From Armatimonadota bacterium (GTDB lineage: Bacteria; Sysuimicrobiota; Sysuimicrobiia; Sysuimicrobiales; Sysuimicrobiaceae): DNA of 34,718 nt. A program made the translations under genes and the position numbers. Below are positions 1,190 to 2,947 of the stretch, one piece after another (position 1 is the first letter of the stretch; every line of letters starts with the position of its first letter). The notes beneath the pieces are model-generated. The model worked only from the letters and a program-made list of their open reading frames with translations, did no database searches and was not told the origin of the DNA. The stretch covers positions 1 through 34,718 of the forward strand of contig JANXBY010000003.1 in assembly GCA_025060455.1 (NCBI GenBank), in the 5' to 3' direction.

Positions 1190-1206
1190 GGCGAAAGCCT
1201 CCTCGC

Positions 1207-1235
1207 TTGACGTGGCACGAGCATTGCTCTATTAT
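1207..1235 (+). promoter_or_regulatory. Sigma-A-type promoter for the hairpin-rich RNA
   Basis: TTGACG at 1207-1212, a 17-bp spacer, and TATTAT at 1230-1235. The spacer contains the inverted repeat GAGCA-T-TGCTC (1219-1229), which could be an operator. Predicted transcription start is near 1242, exactly where the first hairpin begins. Confidence 0.7.
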
Positions 1236-1241
1236 CGAGCG

Positions 1242-1439
1242 GACCTGTTGACCACAGGTCTGCCGGAACGTAGTTCCGGGCACAAACCTAGTTGCACGGG
1301 AGACCGTGCAACCTACACAACCGGATTGCCGACGAGCTTGCCTCGTCAGGCGAGCCACAGGAGCGCTGCGTCGCGCGACGGGCGGCTTTGTCCGCGATGT
1401 TCGCACCGAGTGGTGCTTCTGTCAAGCAAGTTGTTTTTT
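1242..1439 (+). ncRNA. Candidate structured RNA, or structured leader of glgA
   Basis: About 200 nt with a run of consecutive inverted repeats. H1 1242-1260 has 7-bp arms. H2 1263-1279 has 7-bp arms and loop GTA. H3 1291-1312 has 9-bp arms and a GAGA loop. H4 1328-1351 is 9 bp with one bulged A. H5 1369-1380 has CGTC/GACG arms, H6 1382-1395 has GCGG/CCGC arms, and H7 1403-1416 has GCACC/GGTGC arms. A weak stem TGCTT/AAGCA (1414-1428) followed by TTTTTT at 1434-1439 could be a terminator. GCGGAC at the 5' end (1239-1244) can pair with GTCCGC (1390-1395), so a closed multibranch fold is possible. I do not match it to 6S, SRP, tmRNA, RNase P or a riboswitch class I know. If read through, it would be a 5' leader of glgA, which starts 41 nt after the T-run. 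Confidence 0.5.
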
Positions 1440-1480
1440 CCGCGCAATTGTAGCCTACACTCCGGAGGTCCCGGACGCGC

Positions 1481-2947
1481 ATGCGGGTTTTGTTCGTCTC
1501 CTCTGAGGTGGCGCCGTTCTCGAAAACGGGTGGCTTGGCCGACGTGAGCGGCGCTCTTCCGGCGGCCCTTTCGCGCAGGGGGCTGGACGTTCGGGTGATG
1601 ACCCCTTTTTACCGGGCGGTGGTGCAGGGAGGTTGGGCGTCGGCAGCATGTGGGGAGGTCACGCTGGACCCCGGGGGGAGTGTGCAGACTGCCCGCATAA
1701 GGGAGGGCACGCTGCCGGGCGGGCCGCCGGTGTGGTTCGTAGACCACCCGCCTTCCTTCGACCGCCCGGGGCTGTACGGCGAGGGCGGCCAGGACTACCC
1801 GGACAACCTCGAGCGGTTCGCGCTGTTCTGCCGGGCGGTGCTGGCCTGGGTGCAGGCCGCGGACTGGGTTCCCGAGGTGATCCACTGCAACGACTGGCAG
1901 ACCGCCCTGTTGCCCGTGTACCTCCGCACATCCGCGGAGCCCCTGTGGAGCAGGGTGGGCTCGTTGCTGACCGTCCACAACCTGGCCTACCAGGGCGTGT
2001 TCCCGCCGGAGAAGTACGCCCTCCTGGGACTGCCGCAGGACCTGTACAGCCCTCGGTACTTCGAGTTCTGGGGACGAGTCAACCTCCTCAAGGCCGGACT
2101 CGTGTTCGCCGATATCCTGAGTACGGTGAGCGAGACGTACGCGCGAGAGATCCAGACCCCCGAACTGGGGTGCGGACTGGAGAGCGTCCTCCGGGAGCGG
2201 GCGGCTGACCTGTACGGGATCCTGAACGGCGTGGACTACACCGTGTGGGACCCCCGGAATGACACGTACCTGCCGGTTCGCTACGGCCCCGACGACCTTT
2301 CGGGGAAGGCGACGTGCAAAGCGGCCCTGCAGGAAGAAGTCGGGCTGCACCGCACGCCGTCCGTGCCTCTGTTCGGGATGGTGTCCCGGTTGGTTGAACA
2401 AAAGGGGGTTGACTTGGTGGTCGCCTGCGTAGACCACTTCCCTGCGGCCGGGGCTCAGCTGGTGGTGCTGGGGACCGGCGACCCGAGGTACGAGGCAGAG
2501 CTGCAGAACGCCGGCCGGAGGCACCCAGGGTGGGTGGCGGTCCGGATCGGGTTCGACGAGCGGCTGGCGCACTGGATCGAGGCGGGGTGCGACGCCTTTC
2601 TCATGCCCTCCCGCTACGAGCCCTCGGGGCTCAACCAGCTGTACAGCCTCCGGTACGGCACCGTGCCCGTGGTGAGGCGGACCGGCGGGTTGGCGGACAG
2701 CGTGGTGGATGCCACCCCGGAGGCGCTGGAGCGGGGAGAAGCCAACGGGTTCGTGTTTGAAGAGTACACGCCGGGCGCCTTCTGGGGGGCGGTGCAGCGC
2801 GCGCTGGCCGCTTACCAGCACCGTTCTACCTGGGAAAAGCTCGTGCGGACCGGGATGTCCGCGGACTTCTCGTGGGACCGGGCCGCGGGGCGGTACGTGG
2901 ACCTGTACCGGCTGGCCAGGCGCAGGCGGGGTGCGGTACCCTCGTGA
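1481..2947 (+). CDS. glgA: Glycogen/starch synthase (GT5)
   Basis: 488 residues, the usual length for bacterial GlgA. It transfers glucose from a sugar nucleotide, normally ADP-glucose, to the non-reducing end of an alpha-1,4-glucan in the cytoplasm. The GT5 N-terminal signature FSKTGGLADV is present with K15. The C-terminal GT-B half carries SRYEPSGLNQLYSLRYG and the second TGGLADSV motif. The start ATG is preceded by GGAGGT 11 nt upstream. It is followed after 30 nt by galT, so the two are probably cotranscribed. No glgC, glgB or glgP lies nearby, so the glucosyl donor cannot be told from context. The hairpin-rich RNA ends just upstream and could act as its leader. Confidence 0.95.
   Translation: MRVLFVSSEVAPFSKTGGLADVSGALPAALSRRGLDVRVMTPFYRAVVQGGWASAACGEVTLDPGGSVQTARIREGTLPGGPPVWFVDHPPSFDRPGLYGEGGQDYPDNLERFALFCRAVLAWVQAADWVPEVIHCNDWQTALLPVYLRTSAEPLWSRVGSLLTVHNLAYQGVFPPEKYALLGLPQDLYSPRYFEFWGRVNLLKAGLVFADILSTVSETYAREIQTPELGCGLESVLRERAADLYGILNGVDYTVWDPRNDTYLPVRYGPDDLSGKATCKAALQEEVGLHRTPSVPLFGMVSRLVEQKGVDLVVACVDHFPAAGAQLVVLGTGDPRYEAELQNAGRRHPGWVAVRIGFDERLAHWIEAGCDAFLMPSRYEPSGLNQLYSLRYGTVPVVRRTGGLADSVVDATPEALERGEANGFVFEEYTPGAFWGAVQRALAAYQHRSTWEKLVRTGMSADFSWDRAAGRYVDLYRLARRRRGAVPS

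Follow-up and report, generated by a model that had tools for sequence, protein, structure and literature searches.

In this work, a series of hairpins was analysed in the intergenic region between an HD-GYP-type gene, encoding a cyclic-di-GMP-type enzyme, and glgA, the glycogen synthase gene, of an Armatimonadota bacterium. The window, by which we mean the whole stretch of DNA analysed, comprises 34,718 nucleotides, and the features of the locus are listed in Table 1. A full-length relative of the HD-GYP gene is present in L188. The family sample consisted of seven genomes (f1, G000–G006); the locus is present in six of them, spread over three genera, and was not found in the seventh, which is 72% complete. 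The genus of the source genome (G000) has three members with the locus, the other two being G001 (L004) and G003 (L005).

Table 1. Features of the locus, with positions in the window.
Feature	Position	Strand	Remarks
HD-GYP-type membrane gene	1–909	–	truncated at contig end; PF01966, E 6e-6
Second sigma-54-type promoter (putative), CGGCACG-N4-TTGCT	950–965	–	points to HD-GYP gene
28-aa peptide gene, MNKWGKLVLVLSTLASLLVSAGAGGKWG	1036–1122	–	signal-peptide-like, KWG at both ends
MNKWG-stop, five-codon ORF	1172–1189	–	Shine-Dalgarno (GGAGG)
Sigma-70-like hexamers, TTGACG (1207–1212) and TATTAT (1230–1235)	1207–1235	+	overlap sigma-54 site
Sigma-54 promoter (predicted), –24 TGGCACG (1213–1219) and –12 TTGCT (1224–1228)	1213–1228	+	
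H1, GACCTGT-N5-ACAGGTC	1242–1260	.	7 bp, perfect
H2, CCGGAAC-N3-GTTCCGG	1263–1279	.	7 bp, perfect
H3, GTTGCACGG-N4-CCGTGCAAC	1291–1312	.	9 bp, perfect
H4, GCCGACGAG-N5-CTCGTCAGGC	1328–1351	.	6+3 bp, one bulge, near-perfect
Opposing sigma-70-type promoter (probable), TTGACA (1425–1420), 17 nt, GAACAT (1402–1397)	1397–1425	–	
T6 on plus, A6 on minus	1434–1439	–	A/T-rich, directly upstream of minus-strand –35
glgA, glycogen synthase	1481–2947	+	downstream of hairpins

The hairpins H1–H4 are real and shared within the genus, where the array of four recurs in all three genomes holding the locus. When stems with arms of 7 or more and loops of 3–8 were counted, three were observed against 0.09 expected, and none of 2000 shuffles gave three. 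The region also folds more stably than its shuffles (z –3.0 and z –4.7 in two runs), and the RNAalifold energies beat 200 of 200 column shuffles on both strands, for the genus alignment (three sequences) as well as for the g2 pair. In the relatives, the sequence of H1 differs and the hairpin is still perfect, H2 and H3 keep invariant arms with variable loops, and H4 shows one compensatory exchange of A-U to G-C. The other genera retain the promoter but do not have the array. The preliminary description had proposed a structured noncoding RNA, which is supported by the z-scores, the conservation and the compensatory changes in stems 1 and 4. Its statement that no coding frame accounts for the region is also borne out, because the genus alignment has gaps of differing length that interrupt all of the frames; an ORF beginning with MFAA in G001 and G003 has no ribosome site, and its frame shifts in the source genome (read by eye). 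From the six to seven hairpins it had counted (arms of 7, 7, 9, 9, 4, 4 and 5), the first four are the genus-shared ones, and the later stems (arms of 4, 4 and 5) are not in the consensus of the genus relatives. Similarly, the 5′ end can pair with a segment near 1390 (GCGGAC/GTCCGC) in the source genome, but this pairing is absent from the three-member genus consensus.

The alignment fold energies are nearly equal on the plus and minus strands in the genus, and the clear wobble evidence is limited to one pair each way: a pair in H1 on the plus strand only, and a pair flanking H2, which passes through G-C, G-U and A-U, on the minus strand only. Covariation cannot tell which strand uses the hairpins, and they may act in the plus transcript, in the minus-strand leader or in both.

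The Rfam search suggested in the preliminary description matched no family, neither at the gathering threshold in the window and the relatives nor, credibly, at E≤10. The L31 leader (12.7 bits) and ASdes (24.1 bits) were below gathering and lay outside the element. With a covariance model of H1–H4 (R1), only the three genus loci were convincing among 43 phylum genomes, all others having E of 0.01 or worse. A repeated mobile hairpin element was ruled out by the single copy per genome.

The plus-strand promoter of the array appears to be of the sigma-54 rather than the ordinary type. The TGGCACG-N4-TTGCT motif has a GG-to-GC spacing of 12 and fits the –24/–12 consensus exactly, which is given as tGGcacg/tTGCt (PMC4641369). 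In the form TGGCAC-N5-TTGCT it occurs without mismatch at the same place upstream of glgA in all six family genomes with the locus, across the three genera. The same pattern was found 9 times in the source genome against once for the reversed control, and every one of the six more complete family genomes shows enrichment over such a control (7–15 hits versus 0–1). All six genomes also have a –24/–12 motif at the corresponding position ahead of the HD-GYP gene. RpoN is encoded in all nine genomes searched. The source genome possesses two rpoN genes and two full-length AAA+ activators, one beside each: the rpoN on C36 (L186) adjoins an NtrC-like response regulator activator, and the one on C15 (L187) lies within a flagellar/chemotaxis cluster together with its own activator. 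The preliminary description had assigned the RNA its own promoter, TTGACG-N17-TATTAT. These boxes are present (10/12 matches in the source genome) and the promoter position holds, but they are kept within the genus only, and the TTGAC(G) –35 is gone in G004, G005 and G006, where the –24/–12 motif stays. Since all six genomes retain the motif and the source genome encodes RpoN as well as activators, the promoter is better read as sigma-54 than as sigma-70; the overlapping hexamers are possibly a second, genus-limited promoter.

At the 3′ edge of the element, the conserved CTGTCAAGCAAGTTGTTTTTT at 1419–1439 is, on the minus strand, an A-rich stretch followed by TTGACA, and all six genomes have this hexamer, with its A/T-rich upstream stretch, in the equivalent position. 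In the genus, the –10 is a weak GAACAT with TGC ahead of it; the other genera have different sequences at this point. It is probable that this site is the promoter of the minus-strand mini-ORF and peptide genes, with a predicted start near 1390. The TTTTTT at which the RNA had been thought to end has no stem directly before it, and neither of two terminator scans found a plus-strand terminator in the window; G001 and G003 have weak U-tracts as candidate 3′ ends for the plus RNA. Given the opposing TTGACA promoter at this edge, the hairpins would be flanked by converging promoters.

MNKWG-stop occurs in exactly one copy per genome in 6/6 family genomes, always at the locus, and is absent from 37 other phylum genomes. 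Its codons 2 and 5 vary synonymously (AAC/AAT and GGC/GGT/GGA/GGG), and the start and stop codons vary too, which points to selection acting on the peptide itself. The neighbouring peptide gene encodes 28–32 aa in the relatives, is signal-peptide-like and has the form MNKWG...GKWG. In its place G005 (L087, 420–750, minus) has three tandem, near-identical MNKWGRTKCERWA units, each with a ribosome site, in addition to MNKWG-stop, and a strong minus-strand terminator-like stem stands ahead of its MNKWG ORFs. Other families have a related peptide (...GGKWS, ...NGKWG) immediately before DUF5317, and in G019 one lies before a MASE9 membrane protein with an TGGTATCGAAATTGCT site upstream. A KWG peptide with DUF5317/MASE9-type neighbours may be a peptide-signal unit. 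Literature searches yielded nothing on MASE9 with HD-GYP, nor on DUF5317.

The source genome showed neither a terminator nor a separate promoter for glgA, a point in favour of a glgA leader, and the plus transcript probably reads into glgA in the source genus. In genus g2, a sequence further downstream that was read by eye (TTGCCC-N17-CATTAT) looks like a promoter for glgA itself, so the connection with glgA does not extend to all genera.

We hypothesize that the element is most likely a sigma-54-dependent noncoding RNA, serving as a leader or as an antisense transcript. In the full model, for which we regard the chances of being right or wrong as about even, this noncoding transcript would converge with the minus-strand peptide promoter. 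An enhancer-binding activator would open RpoN polymerase at the –24/–12 site, and transcription would begin near 1239, at once forming four stable hairpins. The minus-strand TTGACA promoter would fire leftwards across the same hairpins, and its transcript would be the structured 5′ leader of an mRNA that carries the mini-ORF MNKWG-stop together with the 28-aa peptide gene. With the activator on, the plus transcript would extend toward glgA as a structured 5′ leader in the source genus, and it would be antisense to the peptide leader and collide with it. Sigma-54 activity would lower peptide synthesis, and it would raise HD-GYP from the sigma-54 promoter of the HD-GYP gene itself. By comparison of the genomes, the hairpins, the –24/–12 motif, the opposing TTGACA and the mini-ORF are conserved; from sequence we infer the start sites, the RNA ends, the strand on which the hairpins act, the read-through into glgA, the interference, and the function and physiological role of the RNA.

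A discrete, stand-alone, trans-acting RNA of the NrsZ/CrcZ kind, which would start at the sigma-54 promoter and stop short of glgA, is conceivable though rather unlikely. The sigma-54 motif plus hairpin array and the apparent separate promoter of glgA in g2 would agree with it, and there are precedents for sigma-54-dependent sRNAs (PMC8395346); the sigma-54 regulome of Desulfovibrio includes 4 noncoding RNAs (PMC4641369). It is opposed by the want of a convincing plus-strand intrinsic terminator in the window and of a conserved unpaired seed outside the genus. Moreover, a search of five family genomes for Hfq (PF17209) found none, which speaks against a trans sRNA dependent on it. It is unlikely that the hairpins serve the minus-strand mRNA only, where they would form a structured 5′ leader, possibly an attenuator, for the MNKWG and peptide genes, with an incidental plus transcript. 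The opposing TTGACA in 6/6 genomes, the wobbling pair beside H2 and the terminator-like stem of G005 speak for such a leader, but the stems fold equally well on the plus strand, the H1 pair wobbles there alone, and the window contains no minus terminator as strong as that of G005.

The dyads may instead be sites where a regulator, such as the sigma-54 activator bound downstream, contacts the DNA, and not RNA stems. The invariant arms and free loops of H2 and H3 resemble protein-binding dyads; however, H1 changes most of its pairs and remains perfectly paired, and H4 has its compensatory pair, neither of which a fixed binding site would tolerate. The dyads are also missing from the other genera despite the kept promoter, and we consider this explanation very unlikely. 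The ligand-binding element mentioned in the preliminary description, here a riboswitch in the leader of glgA, would suit a structured region upstream of a metabolic gene, but it found no Rfam match and has no conserved core outside the genus. The two predicted promoters account for the longest conserved unpaired stretches, and we regard a riboswitch as highly improbable. Scarcely credible is the idea that the array is the missing 6S RNA of the family or a CsrA sponge. The RF00013 model found no 6S RNA in the seven family genomes and did find it in 5/6 other-family genomes searched, but the locus forms a hairpin array instead of one long bulged helix and gives no 6S match even at low thresholds. 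CsrA is present in the five family genomes searched, and yet GGA is not enriched on the plus strand in the genus, and at most one hairpin loop carries it, in one of the three members, without conservation. Two genomes from other families were without CsrA.

Compared with known systems, the element shares with the NrsZ sRNA of Pseudomonas its intergenic position, a length of about 200 nt and, on the predicted promoter, dependence on RpoN and an activator (PMC8395346), but it has no Rfam match or detected intrinsic terminator and faces a probable opposing promoter. CrcZ of Pseudomonas is also an RpoN-dependent intergenic noncoding RNA, as the element would be; however, CrcZ has 407 nt with A-rich Hfq sites, and here there is no Rfam match and Hfq was not found. 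The CsrA sponges of the CsrB/RsmZ type share the series of hairpins, and the source genome encodes CsrA, but the element is without repeated GGA in the loops. The leaders of sigma-54-regulated operons likewise have a –24/–12 promoter followed by an untranslated leader; in contrast to these, there are dense hairpins with compensatory changes here, and they overlap the predicted leader of a peptide mRNA on the other strand.

The locus illustrates that a consensus-looking sigma-70 promoter can mask a sigma-54 site, which is revealed only by comparison, and that a T-run taken for a terminator can belong to the upstream border of a promoter on the other strand. The sigma-54-dependent transcript preferred here would be a further case of a noncoding RNA under sigma-54 control, this one from an uncultured lineage in which Hfq was not detected, and would connect RNA of this kind with an HD-GYP enzyme and a conserved five-codon gene. 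It is a speculation, and quite unlikely to hold, that the locus works as a sigma-54 switch in which the activator silences an MNKWG/KWG-peptide signal and turns on a cyclic-di-GMP phosphodiesterase. If true, a hairpin RNA and a five-codon peptide gene would be transcribed from converging promoters across one compact piece of DNA, and that switch would represent a family-wide peptide-signalling unit with an antisense hairpin RNA in an uncultured phylum.
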